In this document: one piece after another, positions 51,455 through 57,607 of the stretch | Layout of the letters: every line of letters starts with the position of its first letter | Numbering within the stretch: position 1 is the stretch's first letter | NCBI RefSeq assembly: GCF_900096995.1 | Contig: NZ_OANT01000003.1 | Location: forward strand, 248,001-312,000 | DNA: 64,000 nt | Origin: Acinetobacter puyangensis | GTDB taxonomy: Bacteria > Pseudomonadota > Gammaproteobacteria > Pseudomonadales > Moraxellaceae | Direction of reading: 5' to 3' | The notes under the pieces: model-generated | Told to the model about the DNA's origin: nothing | What the model saw: only the letters and a program-made list of their open reading frames with translations | Databases searched by the model: none | Position numbers and translations under genes: made by a program

Positions 51455-51472
51455 TTGGCATAGCTTATGCTA
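51455..51472 (+). promoter_or_regulatory. sigma-54 promoter of the pilin gene
   Basis: TTGGCAT...ATGCTA: GG at 457-458 and GC at 469-470 are 10 nt apart. Predicted start near 51482, about 50 nt before the ATG. Type IV pilin genes are typically sigma-54/PilSR-dependent. Confidence 0.65.
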
Positions 51473-51530: not shown

Positions 51531-51953
51531 ATGAACGCACAAAAGGGTTTTACCTTAATTGAATTGATGATTGTAATTGCGATCATTGGTATTTTGGCGG
51601 CAATTGCGATTCCTGCATATACGGACTATACCGTTCGTGCTCGTGTTACAGAGGCTCTCACAACTGCATCAGCAATGAAAGCAACTGTTTCTGAAAATAT
51701 TATGAGTGCTGGTGGTACTACAATTGCAAGTTCAGCGTGTAATGGCGTAATTTCTGCAAGTGCAACTACAAATGTAGCATCATCAGCATGTTCAGGCAGT
51801 GGTGTAATTTCCGTTACTACGACTGCGGCTGCTAAAGGTATTGTTTTAACATTAACACCTAAATATACAGGTGGGAATGTAGCTTGGCAATGTACAACTA
51901 CATCAGGCGATGCTCAAAAATATGTTCCTTCTGAATGTCGGACAACCTCATAA
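51531..51953 (+). CDS. major type IV pilin, ComP/PilA-like
   Basis: 140-aa pilin. Prepilin leader MNAQKG with cleavage before F7, Glu5 of the mature protein ([21 protein letters not shown]) and the usual N-terminal helix. Four cysteines: C70 and C87 enclose [13 protein letters not shown], resembling the ComP loop in which an internal serine is O-glycosylated by PglS/PglL-ComP; a second pair lies near the end (WQC and SEC). It also ends in serine (CRTTS), the kind of site used by TfpO/PilO. Both modes are possible. An oligosaccharyltransferase gene follows, separated by a terminator. Expression probably sigma-54-dependent. Confidence 0.9.
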
Positions 51954-51967
51954 TAAAATTTAAAAAT

Positions 51968-51997
51968 AAAAAGAGCCTCAGATGGGGCTCTTTTTTT
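51968..51997 (+). terminator. terminator between pilin and oligosaccharyltransferase
   Basis: AAAGAGCC / GGCTCTTT stem followed by T7, ending 11 nt before the next ATG. It would let most transcripts stop after the pilin and give low read-through into the transferase. Confidence 0.8.
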
Positions 51998-52007
51998 GGG
52001 ATAATAT

Positions 52008-53216
52008 ATGAGCTTTTATTGTTATAAGTATTTAAATCTTTTTGGTATTTTTTTAATGGGTGTGGCGTATTTTTCAACAATAACGCTTTTTTTCTCTACT
52101 ACTTTTTATAAAGAAATCTTTGCTGTTGCAGGGCTTTTATTCTTTTTAACAGCATTATGCTTTCAATACAAAATTGTCAGTACCCAATTGCTGTTATTTA
52201 ATCTTGCTTTGCTTTTAATTCCAATGATTCAATATGCTTTTGGAATTATCTTTTTTTTGCAGGATGCATTGTTATCAACTGTTTATCTGTGTATTTTCTT
52301 ATGCAGTATTTTAGTGGGAGTAAATTTTAAAGCCAATCATCAGACAAATATATTAAATATATTTTTAGCGATGCTTGTGTTTGTTGGATGTATATCTGTA
52401 TTGATGGCATTTAATCAGCGTTTTATGTGGTTCAATAGTTATTTATTATTTTCCTCCTCTTATGGTAATCGTGCAACAGCAAATCTTGCACAACCCAATC
52501 AATTATCTACCTTGCTTATCATGAGCTTATTCTCATTGTTTTATTTGTACCAAGCACAAAAAATTAAAAAAATCATCATGTATGGTATTACGTTCATATT
52601 GTTGATTGGGATTGTGATGACCCAATCACGTTCAGCATGGGCATCATGCATCGTTTTAAGTGCGTTATATCTTTATTATTACCATCAAAAACAAGATATT
52701 ATAAACGTTATAAAATTAAATGTTGTTTTTATTGGTTTAACACTATGTATTCCTTTTTTACTGAATGTTTTAACTTATTCCCAAGCGTCTACTGCGATAG
52801 ATCGTTTACAAGGTGGATCAACACGTTTTAAAATTTGGCCACAATTGCTTCATGCAGTTATGGAGCAACCTTGGACTGGATACGGCTGGGGACAAGTCGA
52901 TGTTGCACAGTTATCTACCATGACACCAACATCTACAAAAAAAGAATTATTTACTTATTCGCATAATTTGTTTTTAGACCTCCTACTATGGAATGGTTTG
53001 GTGCTTGGTACACTACTCAGTTTATTGATTATTTATATTTTATATCGTTGCTATATGAATCTGCAATATAAACAGGATTTATTATTGTTTTTAGGGTTTA
53101 TGGCATTTTTTGTGCATTCTTGCTTGGAATATCCGTATGCATATACATATTTTCTAATTCCAGCCGGTATGTTTTTAGGTTATGTATCGTATCAACAAAA
53201 TATTAAAGAGGTGTGA
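52008..53216 (+). CDS. pilin O-oligosaccharyltransferase, N-terminal part (PglS/PglL/TfpO-like, split)
   Basis: 402 aa with about ten hydrophobic segments and a Wzy_C-type O-antigen ligase region (TQSRSAWASCIVLSALYLYY, GYGWGQVDVAQL, YSHNLFLDLLLWNGL, CLEYPYAYTYFLIPAGMFLGY). It would transfer a lipid-linked glycan to the pilin in the periplasm. PglL/PglS enzymes are about 540 aa and continue with another helix and a C-terminal domain; here the frame stops after the last Wzy_C helix, and the missing part lies in the next frame at 53218. TfpO-type enzymes can be shorter, so this part alone may be active. AT-rich relative to neighbours. Confidence 0.82.
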   Translation: MSFYCYKYLNLFGIFLMGVAYFSTITLFFSTTFYKEIFAVAGLLFFLTALCFQYKIVSTQLLLFNLALLLIPMIQYAFGIIFFLQDALLSTVYLCIFLCSILVGVNFKANHQTNILNIFLAMLVFVGCISVLMAFNQRFMWFNSYLLFSSSYGNRATANLAQPNQLSTLLIMSLFSLFYLYQAQKIKKIIMYGITFILLIGIVMTQSRSAWASCIVLSALYLYYYHQKQDIINVIKLNVVFIGLTLCIPFLLNVLTYSQASTAIDRLQGGSTRFKIWPQLLHAVMEQPWTGYGWGQVDVAQLSTMTPTSTKKELFTYSHNLFLDLLLWNGLVLGTLLSLLIIYILYRCYMNLQYKQDLLLFLGFMAFFVHSCLEYPYAYTYFLIPAGMFLGYVSYQQNIKEV

Positions 53217-53217
53217 T

Positions 53218-53634
53218 ATGTTAATTCAGATTAATAAGAAATTATATGTGATATTTTTAATTTTATTATGTATTATATTTGGTTGTTTTTTAATTGAAGT
53301 AAATCACCTTAATGAAAAAAGTGATTTGTACGCACGGCAAAATTTATTTCATGAAAAAGTTGATTTTAATGACCAAAAATTTTATTTTTTGGATGGGTAT
53401 AGTACATCCTTAGATTTTCAAACCATTCCATACTGCAATTTAGTTCAATATTATCCACTAATAACTTTTAAACAGATAGCTTATCGTTATCCATCTGCTT
53501 TAACTATTGCCAAATACTGGTTGTTTTCGCAAAAACAGCAACAGATGGTACGAGATGCTGAGCAGCTTAGACAGGCTTATGTATTATTAACTAAAAGTGG
53601 TCAGCATACTTTTAATAATAAAGTATGTAATTAA
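53218..53634 (+). CDS. oligosaccharyltransferase C-terminal part in a shifted frame
   Basis: 138 aa: one transmembrane helix (LYVIFLILLCIIFGCFLI), then a soluble segment ending YRYPSALTIAKYWLFSQ, which resembles the end of PglL-type enzymes (aromatic-rich YPxxxSL... pattern). Together with the 402-aa frame before it, this makes about 540 residues, the size of a complete PglL/PglS. It has its own GAGGTG site 4 nt before the ATG and starts 2 nt after the upstream stop, so it may be a separate coupled polypeptide, or the result of a frameshift in a once single gene. Sequence similarity is by eye only. Confidence 0.6.
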   Translation: MLIQINKKLYVIFLILLCIIFGCFLIEVNHLNEKSDLYARQNLFHEKVDFNDQKFYFLDGYSTSLDFQTIPYCNLVQYYPLITFKQIAYRYPSALTIAKYWLFSQKQQQMVRDAEQLRQAYVLLTKSGQHTFNNKVCN

Positions 53635-53814: not shown

Positions 53815-54234
53815 ATGAAAAGACAGCAGGGTTTTACCTTAATTGAAATCATGATTGCCATTGCAATTTTGGGAATTTTGGCTGCTATTGCAACAGTCAA
53901 CTATACACTTTACACGAAGAAAACTATCCTTAGCGTTGCATTATCGGAAATATCAGCTTTAAAAACAGAATACGAAATGGCAGTTAACGAAAATTATTCA
54001 GGTCTAGGCAACTTGTCTAATATTGATATTAGTGCTTCAAAATACTGTATTTTAAACGTCAATGCACCAGATCCTACAACATTTATTGCAGACAAAGCAT
54101 TGGTTTGTACTTTAAAAAATACCGCATTATTTGGCGAAAATGCACAGGTGTATTTATCCCGAAGTGCAACAGGGCAATATACTTGTCATGTCGAGAATAT
54201 TGCACAGCAATATTTGCCGGCAACGTGTAATTAA
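53815..54234 (+). CDS. second type IV pilin-like protein
   Basis: 139-aa pilin. Leader MKRQQG, cleavage before F7, Glu5 conserved (FTLIEIMIAIAILGILAAIA). Four cysteines (KYC, LVC, YTC, ATCN), the last pair forming a C-terminal loop of the PilA kind. It lacks the C-terminal serine of the upstream pilin. The frame is open from 53746, but the leader begins at 53815 with AAGAG about 9 nt upstream. It may be a minor or alternative pilin of the same locus. Confidence 0.82.
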   Translation: MKRQQGFTLIEIMIAIAILGILAAIATVNYTLYTKKTILSVALSEISALKTEYEMAVNENYSGLGNLSNIDISASKYCILNVNAPDPTTFIADKALVCTLKNTALFGENAQVYLSRSATGQYTCHVENIAQQYLPATCN

Positions 54235-54748: not shown

Positions 54749-55291
54749 ATGAAATACAATCCAGATATACATCATCGGCGAAGTATTCGATTAAAAGGTT
54801 ATGATTATTCGCAAGCCGGCTATTATTTTATTACGATTTGTTGTGCTGATCGAGCATGTCTATTTGGAAATATTATAGATGATTCTATGTATTTAAATGA
54901 TTTTGGAATAATTGCACATGATGAATGGTTAAAAACGGTAGAATTGAGAAAAAATGTTCTATTAGATGATTTTGTGATTATGCCAAATCATATGCATGCA
55001 ATTATTATACTTACAGAAACTGATTTATCAGAGGAGTATAATGGATCAAGCATATCTGAATTGGGCGTATGCAATACGCCCCTACGGTCGCCATCAAATA
55101 ATTTAGGTTCGATCATACGTGGTTATAAATCAGCGGTAACAAAGCAAATAAAACAACAGAATTTTCATGGGCAAGTATGGCAACGAAATTATCATGAACA
55201 TATTATTCGTAATGAGCAATCATATCAAAAAATTTCACAATATATTGCGAATAATCCTACAACATGGAATGAGGACTGTTTTTATATATAG
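54749..55291 (+). CDS. REP-associated tyrosine transposase (RAYT, Y1 HUH family)
   Basis: 180-aa single-strand transposase of the Transposase_17 family. HUH motif in FVIMPNHMHAIIIL, N-terminal RRSIRLKGYDYSQAGYYFITICC, and the catalytic tyrosine region KISQYIANNPTTW near the C-terminus. RAYTs bind and cleave GTAG-hairpin REP DNA; the REP array lies immediately upstream. A complete REP hairpin (55063-55085) is inside this coding sequence and is translated as part of the protein. Length is typical (about 150-230 aa), and the HUH and Tyr motifs look intact, so the enzyme may be active. Confidence 0.9.
   Translation: MKYNPDIHHRRSIRLKGYDYSQAGYYFITICCADRACLFGNIIDDSMYLNDFGIIAHDEWLKTVELRKNVLLDDFVIMPNHMHAIIILTETDLSEEYNGSSISELGVCNTPLRSPSNNLGSIIRGYKSAVTKQIKQQNFHGQVWQRNYHEHIIRNEQSYQKISQYIANNPTTWNEDCFYI
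55063..55085. repeat. REP hairpin inside the RAYT gene
   Basis: GGGCGTAT-GCA-ATACGCCC followed by CTAC, that is an inverse-oriented GTAG hairpin, within the transposase frame and read as GVCNTPL. The stem is identical to the array B units. Confidence 0.9.
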
Positions 55292-55345: not shown

Positions 55346-55636
55346 TTATTTATACAAAACTGTATAATCGATTGCAGTATTTAGAATACGAACAATGAAA
55401 ATACAATTAGACTCGATACGGAAAAATATTGAATAGTTTTGATAGACACGTCTACGTATTCCCAAATCCGCCAGTTCATCAAAAATTTGAAATGCCTTGG
55501 GTATATCAGCAATAGATAGGCATTTTTGCTCTAGTTCTTGGGTAAAAGACAAAGCACGAATTGGATTGTCTTGGGCAATAAAATCTAAGATTTGTTCTAA
55601 ATCAAATTCGGCTTGTTTCGTAAAAATCACTTTCAT
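55346..55636 (-). CDS. ParE/RelE-family toxin
   Basis: 96-aa toxin of the ParE/RelE superfamily (VIFTKQAEFDLEQILDFIAQDNPIRALSFTQELEQKC, ELADLGIRRRVYQNYSIFFRIE, VRILNTAIDY). ParE-type toxins inhibit DNA gyrase, though this assignment is by sequence pattern. The start overlaps the antitoxin stop by 4 nt on the minus strand, so antitoxin and toxin are translationally coupled. The C-terminal Arg/Tyr residues expected for the fold are present. Confidence 0.88.
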   Translation of the reverse strand: MKVIFTKQAEFDLEQILDFIAQDNPIRALSFTQELEQKCLSIADIPKAFQIFDELADLGIRRRVYQNYSIFFRIESNCIFIVRILNTAIDYTVLYK

Positions 55637-55887
55637 GATTTATCTGCGATTGCCTGATATTTTGCTTTCAAGCGAGCAAAAACATCTTCTGCTGGCGTTG
55701 TTTGTCCTGCTTCAATATCTGCCAGACCTTGTTTGATTAACGCCTTCAAAGCTTCCTGTTGTGTTTCTCTTTCTTGAATCATGCGTACGCCTTCACGCAG
55801 CACTTCACTTTTTGAGCCATACCTTCCACCATCAACGAGTTCTTGCACATAGCTTTCAAGTGATTTGCCTAAATCGGCACTAATCAT
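55633..55887 (-). CDS. ParD-like antitoxin
   Basis: 84-aa antitoxin with the ribbon-helix-helix ParD pattern (MISADLGKSLESYVQELVDGGRYGSKSEVLREGVRMIQERE) and a C-terminal toxin-binding helix. First gene of the parDE pair; GGTGAT precedes the ATG on its strand. A perfect inverted repeat just upstream is the probable autorepression operator. Confidence 0.9.
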   Translation of the reverse strand: MISADLGKSLESYVQELVDGGRYGSKSEVLREGVRMIQERETQQEALKALIKQGLADIEAGQTTPAEDVFARLKAKYQAIADKS

Positions 55888-56217: not shown

Positions 56218-56979
56218 ATGACAGACCTACAACTCATTACACTGATTGATCGTATTGTCGATACCAGTCAATTTTTTCGGCAACAAGCACAAAAACAGGT
56301 CAATGTAATGCTGACTTTGCGTAACTGGTGTATTGGTTACTATTTGGTGGAATATGAACAACAAGGTGCAGATCGTGCGATATATGGGGATAACACTTTA
56401 GAACAGATTGCTGTAGCGTTAAAACAGCAAGGTTTAAAAGGATTAGGGAAAACCAATCTTAAAATATTTAGACAGTTTTATCTAAATTATCCTCAAATTG
56501 GTCAGACACTGTCTGACCAATCCAGCCAGTTTTTATTGCCACAACATTTAGTCTTTAGAAATATTAGTGTAAAGTCGGAAACACAGGATATCCTCTATCA
56601 AATTGCACCCTTGACCTTGGTGAATCAACTTAGCTTTAGCCATTTTATTGAGTTACTCAAAATAGAAAATCCATTGCAACGCAGCTTTTATGAAAGTCAG
56701 ACGATTAAAAATCATTGGTCTGTACGAGAACTACAACGGGCAATCAATAGTCTGTTATTTGAACGTACCGGATTAAGTCTGGATAAAGAAAAAGTACTGG
56801 AAAAACATGCAAAGGGCACAGGATTATCAGCTAAAGATGTATTTCGTAATCCCTATATGCTGGAATTTTTAGGTTTGCAGGAAAAAATAGAATACTATAT
56901 TTTATCTTTAAATCGCATTGCAGGGAATATGACTGATCAACAAGGTAATGTCGTGAAAATTGTCGATTTAAGACTGTGA
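56218..56979 (+). CDS. DUF1016 (YhcG-like) protein without the PD-(D/E)XK nuclease domain
   Basis: 253-aa protein. The N-terminal YhcG/DUF1016 domain covers about residues 5-220 (LRNWCIGYYLVEYEQQGADRAIYGDNTLEQIAVALK, LRNISVKSETQ-like, HWSVRELQRAINSLLFERTGLS, KDVFRNPYMLEFLGL). Family members of about 340-370 aa then continue into a PD-(D/E)XK nuclease domain; here only about 30 residues follow (SLNRIAGNMTDQQGNVVKIVDLRL), so the nuclease is missing. It could be a truncated but stable DNA-associated protein. It belongs to the accessory block with parDE and Uma2. Confidence 0.82.
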   Translation: MTDLQLITLIDRIVDTSQFFRQQAQKQVNVMLTLRNWCIGYYLVEYEQQGADRAIYGDNTLEQIAVALKQQGLKGLGKTNLKIFRQFYLNYPQIGQTLSDQSSQFLLPQHLVFRNISVKSETQDILYQIAPLTLVNQLSFSHFIELLKIENPLQRSFYESQTIKNHWSVRELQRAINSLLFERTGLSLDKEKVLEKHAKGTGLSAKDVFRNPYMLEFLGLQEKIEYYILSLNRIAGNMTDQQGNVVKIVDLRL

Positions 56980-57061: not shown

Positions 57062-57607
57062 ATGGTCTTTGCCAACAAATATAGACTCAATCAACAAGAA
57101 TATTTGCAGGGTGAGTTAAATAGCGACATTAAGCACGAATTAGTCAATGGTGAAGTCTTTGCCATGGTTGGTGCAAGTTCTGCGCATAATTTAATTAGCT
57201 TAAATATTGCAGGTGAGCTTCGTCATTATTTGAAAGGTAAGCCATGCCGTCCATATATCAATGATATGAAAGTAAAGATTGAAGATAATTTTTATTATCC
57301 AGATGTCGTAGTGGATTGTAGCCAGATTGCCAATGATGCTTACTTTGTAGAAACACCAATCTTGATTATTGAAGTGCTTTCTGCATCGACAAAAAGCTAT
57401 GATAAAACCTTTAAACTCGAGCAATATAAAAAGATTCCGACCTTGCAGGAATATGTCATGATCGAACAGGACACACAGCTGGTTGAAGTGCTAAGCCGTC
57501 TGGACAACTGGCAACCGCATTATTATGAAGCGGGCGAGGACTTTATCTTACAGTCTGTAGGCTTAAAACTCGCAGTTGCTGATGTCTATGATGGGCTTCA
57601 ATTATAA
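57062..57607 (+). CDS. Uma2 family (restriction-endonuclease-like fold) protein
   Basis: 181-aa Uma2 (DUF820) protein with the PD-(D/E)XK-like core: ELNSDIKHELVNGEVFAM, CRPYINDMKVKIEDNFYYPDVVVDC and ILIIEVLSASTK, with acidic residue and Lys in the expected order. Uma2 proteins are widespread in mobile and accessory regions but lack an established function. A paralogue of about 50 percent identity by eye begins at 63660. It is followed by a hairpin and then bfr on the other strand. Confidence 0.85.
   Translation: MVFANKYRLNQQEYLQGELNSDIKHELVNGEVFAMVGASSAHNLISLNIAGELRHYLKGKPCRPYINDMKVKIEDNFYYPDVVVDCSQIANDAYFVETPILIIEVLSASTKSYDKTFKLEQYKKIPTLQEYVMIEQDTQLVEVLSRLDNWQPHYYEAGEDFILQSVGLKLAVADVYDGLQL

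Follow-up and report, generated by a model that had tools for sequence, protein, structure and literature searches.

A PglS-like pilin oligosaccharyltransferase divided between two abutting reading frames in Acinetobacter puyangensis

In a 64,000-nucleotide stretch of Acinetobacter puyangensis DNA (termed the window, the whole stretch that was analysed), a pilin gene is followed by a pilin O-oligosaccharyltransferase gene that is divided between two reading frames. This PglS-class enzyme is probably made naturally as two polypeptides, the second of which (part 2) would be produced by termination-reinitiation at the end of the first (part 1). The two-part reading is preferred because of the exact position of the part 2 start, the strong ribosome-binding site in front of it, the place at which the enzyme is cut, and the absence of clear decay.

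Part 1 (positions 52008–53216, plus strand, with its stop codon at 53214–53216) begins 54 bases after the end of the pilin gene and encodes 402 amino acids with a predicted WaaL-like core. Part 2 (53218–53634, plus strand) encodes 138 amino acids, which by homology comprise the last membrane helix and the periplasmic C-terminal domain. Its ATG at 53218 lies 1 base after the part 1 stop, in the +1 frame. The open frame of part 2 extends back to 53179 and includes an ATG at 53182, from which a protein of 150 amino acids would be read, but with the start at 53218 the two genes abut without overlap. The preliminary description of a PglL/PglS-like transferase in two frames (402 and 138 amino acids) is therefore correct, while its term “overlapping frames” suits the open frame from 53179 and not the genes as read from 53218.

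At the domain level, part 1 matches the Pfam families Wzy_C (66.9 bits, cut-off 31.7) and PglL_A (31.3 bits, cut-off 25). Only the start of Wzy_C_2 is matched, up to a point near the split, at 23.3 bits (below the cut-off of 28.5), compared to 32.0 bits in the intact PglS of A. baylyi and 29.6 bits in that of A. soli. Part 2 has nothing above the Pfam cut-offs. In line with the preliminary description, which called it a C-terminal part, it aligns with the C-terminal end of PglS, with 33% identity in A. baylyi (E 3.0e-22) and 30–32% in A. soli (E 2.2e-17); the corresponding identities for part 1 are 46% and 40%. Alignment with single-chain homologs runs over their full length, across the split, with little missing except linker residues. 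A short transferase of the TfpO/TfpM type followed by an unrelated second gene is ruled out, because part 2 has its homolog in the C-terminus of single-chain PglS. Part 1 is the one Wzy_C protein found in the window genome.

Assignment to the PglS class follows from sequence comparison. In a tree of part 1 and 48 homologs (49 sequences, leaving out L051, which ends at a contig end), the window enzyme groups with the PglS proteins of A. baylyi and A. soli with a support of 1.0. In A. baylyi DSM 14961 (G063) and A. soli KCTC 22184 (G035), pglS is one frame of 548 and 543 amino acids, respectively, which adjoins a ComP-like pilin gene and lies near a gene that is presumably bacterioferritin-like.

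The split appears to be peculiar to this genome among those surveyed. A search with part 1 across 175 Acinetobacter genomes gave a match at E ≤ 0.001 in 166, and among the matches listed the open frames measure 539–597 amino acids, except for the window (403) and one in genome G141 (about 471–472). Two of the 9 genomes without a homolog at this threshold are incomplete or of low quality, and a smaller homolog search turned up a match in G027 that is weak and partial (E 2.5e-4, frame 408). When the same 175 genomes were searched with part 2, matches were obtained only in its own genome, A. baylyi and A. soli; a second, weak match in the A. baylyi genome (E 0.007) contains three stops. In a scan of named genomes, 46 of 48 loci, A. 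baylyi and A. soli among them, carry a full-length single frame (543–634 amino acids), and the other 2 end at contig ends. A plasmid collection contributed 4 A. baumannii records at 29% identity, and the viral contigs scanned gave no lead. The preliminary description had named single frames in all close relatives, combined with an error shown by resequencing, as what would speak against its proposal; the homologs seen are indeed single frames, and none of the others surveyed is split at this position, but the quality of the assembly argues against an error. Because the split is seen in this genome alone, there is no conservation to prove selection.

Shortened transferase genes of other kinds do occur. 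An order-wide search with PglL_A gave matches in 15 of 293 genomes, with shorter frames in G260, G402, G257 and G392, none of which was shown to match the window split. The frames in G257 and G392 are 58 and 49 amino acids long, one of those in G402 (G402:C158) ends at a contig end, and another (G402:C134) seems to be frameshifted in mid-gene. In G260, a 259-amino acid remnant of a pilin transferase (L161, G260:C123:1066–1845) adjoins a pilin gene. In G141, one of two transferases (L060) ends at 471 amino acids because transposase genes have been inserted, and the remainder of its C-terminal end is picked up again ~880 bases downstream of the stop. The other copy has an intact frame of 544 amino acids.

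The position of the cut leaves the proposed active site in a single chain. A. baylyi PglS is described as having 13 helices and a periplasmic C-terminal domain at residues 438–548, with R159, R271, R278, H324 and E379 as the proposed active-site residues (PMC12800693), and its H324A variant is reported to be inactive (PMC6385209). The window residues R155, R266, R273, H319 and E374 all fall in part 1 and are invariant in a three-way alignment with A. baylyi and A. soli. In an alignment of 22 sequences, H319, R273 and E374 are invariant and R155 is nearly so, while R266 is not among the conserved residues.

Each part is modelled with confidence when taken alone: part 1 (pLDDT 87.7, pTM 0.89) shows 12 helices of at least 15 residues, and in part 2 (pLDDT 87.5, pTM 0.76) a long helix is accompanied by five shorter ones. 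The best structural match of part 1 in Foldseek is WaaL (7tpg/7tpj; E 7.6e-5, TM 0.53, rmsd 8.6). The family profile matches a solved structure, 9rmk_A, identified as an oligosaccharyltransferase by its table name, over positions 24–535 (E 2.5e-55); this structure is absent among the Foldseek matches listed for part 1. For the part 2 fold, Foldseek gave nothing at E ≤ 0.001, and comparison with 45 alignable chains gave middling helical matches only (Z up to 5.8). The part 2 profile matched designed TPR-like repeats, of which no single stretch passed, and the modelled domain is helical and perhaps TPR-like. The two parts are separated within the linker that leads to the last predicted helix. 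Judging from the published topology and from the lysines that start part 2, this linker is probably cytoplasmic. A cut here would keep the catalytic core in one chain and allow the second chain to insert alone.

A Shine-Dalgarno-like sequence (53205–53213, plus strand) covers the final three sense codons of part 1 and pairs with the anti-Shine-Dalgarno sequence at −7.1 kcal/mol, with a spacing of six bases between GAGG and the ATG at 53218, which bears out the earlier claim that the 138-amino acid part has a ribosome-binding site of its own. Across 400 kb of this genome, 61 of 6186 internal ATGs are preceded by a site this strong, compared to 10% of 300 first gene ATGs. The site before the ATG at 53182 reaches only −3.0 kcal/mol, so a start there is possible but disfavoured.

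To gauge such an arrangement against chance, frameshifts were simulated at every codon, and an ATG was counted when it lay between 12 bases before and 15 bases after the first base of the new stop. An equally strong site accompanied such an ATG in 368 of 194036 simulated shifts in 301 genes (0.19%), in 30 of 25616 in 44 GC-poor genes (0.12%) and in 43 of 23653 in a random draw, while the inclusion of GTG and TTG starts gave 164 of 23653 (0.69%) and a milder threshold of −5.0 kcal/mol gave 1.3%; all of these figures are post hoc, as the case was picked after scanning many genes and genomes. Over the 45 codons compared at the junction, there is no in-frame ATG in A. baylyi and one in A. soli (codon 416), which lies a few codons past the junction region and has no binding site. 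Whatever their frame, the start codons of both species in this stretch have sites of −3.7 kcal/mol at best, which suggests that the window signal arose in its own lineage. The RNA around the junction is predicted to form a stem that takes in the binding site, but this stem is not unusual (z −0.44).

The pilin gene upstream (51531–51953, plus strand) encodes a ComP/PilA-type protein of 140 amino acids (PF00114, 58.6 bits; PF07963, 42.8 bits) that is 71% and 75% identical to the PglS-adjoining pilins of A. baylyi and A. soli, respectively. Cys70 and Cys87 bracket a loop that contains ISAS (with Ser77) and ATTNVA, and the last residue is Ser140, as the preliminary description of a ComP-like pilin with a Cys70–Cys87 loop and a terminal serine had it. 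In A. baylyi ADP1, PglS is reported to glycosylate ComP at Ser84 within 81ISASNATTNVATAT94 (PMC6385209), and a pglS knockout in ADP1 is reported to shift ComP from 20 to 18 kDa (PMC3643930). The window loop keeps both ISAS and ATTNVA with 1 residue fewer between them, so that it resembles the ComP acceptor loop, as also pointed out earlier, but falls one residue short beside the acceptor serine. Moreover, automatic alignment of the pilins places ADP1 Ser84 opposite Ala76, not Ser77. For these two reasons the acceptor residue is uncertain; from the sequence, Ser77 appears to be the nearest, not an exact, equivalent of Ser84, and the C-terminal Ser140 is the other candidate.

Upstream of the pilin gene, a tentative sigma-54-like −24/−12 site (51455–51471, plus strand) has 1 mismatch to TTGGCAYNNNNNTTGCW. 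As the window holds 6 such matches where 3.3 are expected by chance, it is the position of this site that speaks for it. A hairpin with flanking A and T runs lies between the pilin and the transferase (51968–51995, unstranded, found by a terminator-like scan on the minus strand only). It is a possible partial terminator and may reduce transferase expression relative to that of the pilin. Directly after the split transferase lies a second pilin gene (53815–54234; 139 amino acids, PF00114 41.3 bits), whose product ends in Asn and is 39% identical to the first pilin; it is perhaps a minor pilin or the leftover of another pilin cassette. These two are the PF00114 pilin genes of the window genome, and both are at this locus. 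Between the pilins and the bacterioferritin-like gene, the segment 54749–57607 contains what we take to be a REP-associated transposase (54749–55291), a RelE/ParE-like toxin-antitoxin pair (55346–55887), a DUF1016-like gene (56218–56979) and an Uma2-like gene (57062–57607).

A sister species (G112), with 93% DNA identity in a gene that is presumably gltB, has a different arrangement at the same place (L133/L134, G112:C7). There, a pilin different from the ComP-like one is accompanied by another, short pilin-like gene and by an accessory protein, TfpX/TfpZ (NF041437, 293 bits, cut-off 200), and the search with part 1 found no transferase match in this genome. Alignment of the window with the sister holds up to 51620, inside the conserved pilin start, and resumes from 56941. 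The flanks of the cassette are about 89–90% identical, and the break lies within the pilin gene. This interruption of the alignment suggests that the pilin cassette has probably been exchanged.

With regard to the glycan, the window genome contains one PF02397 sugar transferase, which is of the glucose-1-phosphate (WcaJ) type (451.9 bits, cut-off 410.75). Its gene (L136, G000:C24:165510–166583) encodes 357 amino acids without the first ~112 positions of the family model, and inspection by eye of the 700 bases upstream revealed no remnant, so the protein could be either a natural short form or truncated. From its neighbours, the gene looks to be part of an exopolysaccharide cluster, on the same contig as the split transferase. 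PglS is reported to accept glycans that have glucose at their reducing end (PMC6385209). A glucose-type PF02397 transferase fits this, although it is no proof of use.

The preliminary description left the choice between a two-polypeptide transferase and a recent frameshift, and the strong site, the placement of the start and the lack of clear decay lean towards the former without settling the matter. A real and recent frameshift, which would have inactivated pglS, leaving part 1 dead or unstable and the pilin unglycosylated, with the good binding site a matter of luck, is the less likely account but a serious one. It agrees with the single frames of the other homologs seen and the absence of a second split case. 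The sister carries a pilin and TfpZ without a transferase, which means that a close relative does without the enzyme, and the 9 of 175 Acinetobacter genomes without a homolog, the G141 copy cut by a transposase, and the turnover of cassettes in the genus point the same way. If so, the locus would document how pilin glycosylation was lost in one lineage, with another cassette present in its sister. However, the site and start placement recur in only about 0.1–0.2% of simulated frameshifts (post hoc), the shift would have kept the catalytic core entire within a single chain, and no Wzy_C protein other than the one encoded here was found in the genome. In addition, neither part is clearly decayed. 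Identity to A. baylyi is 45.9% (183/399) for part 1 and 33.3% (46/138) for part 2, and among 462 intact homolog pairs with a part-1 identity of 38–50% (non-independent pairs, with L053 dropped) the mean identity of the C-terminal part is 30.7% (sd 3.3). Faster change is thus not clearly seen in part 2, though a very recent event would equally leave no decay. A. soli is slightly closer to A. baylyi than part 2 is: those two species share 46% in part 1 and 37–38% in the C-terminal part, against 33% for part 2.

That the frame is broken only by a sequencing or assembly error is improbable. The window genome is a single draft assembly of 35 contigs, and homologs elsewhere are in one frame, as such an error would have it. 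Against this, 203 of the 284 genes in a 337-kb stretch of the sister genome match at ≥70% identity in 400 kb of this genome. For 202 of these, a single frame covers more than 80% of the length, and this assembly shows a frameshift in none of the 203 (1 of 202 in the reverse comparison). The longest homopolymer within 53150–53260 is 5 bases, and a strong ribosome-binding site with an ATG would not be expected alongside an error. At the DNA level, the split is as well established as a single draft assembly permits. The short homopolymers, together with the lack of a repeat by eye, also disfavour a phase-variable gene. Programmed +1 ribosomal frameshifting, which would join both frames into one chain, is very hard to credit, even though the shift needed is +1 and a Shine-Dalgarno-like stretch stands just before the stop, an arrangement loosely similar to that of the release-factor-2 gene. 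By our reading of the junction, the last sense codon re-pairs poorly in the +1 frame and the Shine-Dalgarno-like stretch is at the site itself rather than upstream; moreover, a well-spaced start codon would be superfluous.

In the preferred two-polypeptide reading, ribosomes that end part 1 would reinitiate immediately on part 2 through translational coupling. Part 2 would then insert via its single helix, placing its domain in the periplasm, and the two chains would pack as they do in the single-chain enzyme. Together, they could move an undecaprenyl-pyrophosphate-linked glycan, perhaps with glucose at its reducing end, onto the pilin, either at a loop serine, of which Ser77 is the most likely, or at the C-terminal Ser140. 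Whether this amounts to a natural two-subunit O-oligosaccharyltransferase, in which termination-reinitiation balances a catalytic 12-helix chain with a chain of one helix and a periplasmic domain, is a question on which the case for and the case against are evenly matched.

To our knowledge, there is no other natural two-subunit bacterial O-oligosaccharyltransferase, and none made of two chains was found in the titles and abstract openings of the literature that was searched. If the two-subunit arrangement holds, the subunit that handles the acceptor could be exchanged apart from the catalytic subunit. The use of PglS for making conjugate vaccines is reported to stem from its ability to transfer glycans whose reducing end is glucose (PMC6385209). 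If PglS works as two chains, its periplasmic domain could be supplied in trans, which would provide a direct route to asking what this domain does and to studying the fission of a membrane enzyme.

Several known systems resemble the window locus in part. The closest structural match of part 1, the O-antigen ligase WaaL, differs in its acceptor, as it transfers to the lipid A core and not to protein. Transferases of the TfpO/TfpM type are linked to pilins and are described as acting on a C-terminal Ser or Thr and as being without PglL_A and Wzy_C_2 (PMC12645811). The window pilin likewise ends in a serine, Ser140, but part 1 differs from these enzymes in having PglL_A above its cut-off (31.3 against 25). 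A. soli PglS (L057/L086) is closer, with 40% identity to part 1, 30–32% to part 2 and an adjoining pilin that is 75% identical, but it is one chain of 543 amino acids and its pilin ends in Thr. A. baylyi PglS (ACIAD3337 in ADP1; L056/L062) shares with the window enzyme an adjoining ComP-type pilin with a similar loop, the same catalytic residues, Wzy_C and PglL_A, and a C-terminal periplasmic domain, and the 12 + 1 long helices of the window proteins correspond to the 13 of the published model. It differs in that the window pilin ends in Ser and has a loop without the residue after the glycosylated serine, and in that A. baylyi makes as one chain of 548 amino acids what the window encodes as 402 and 138.
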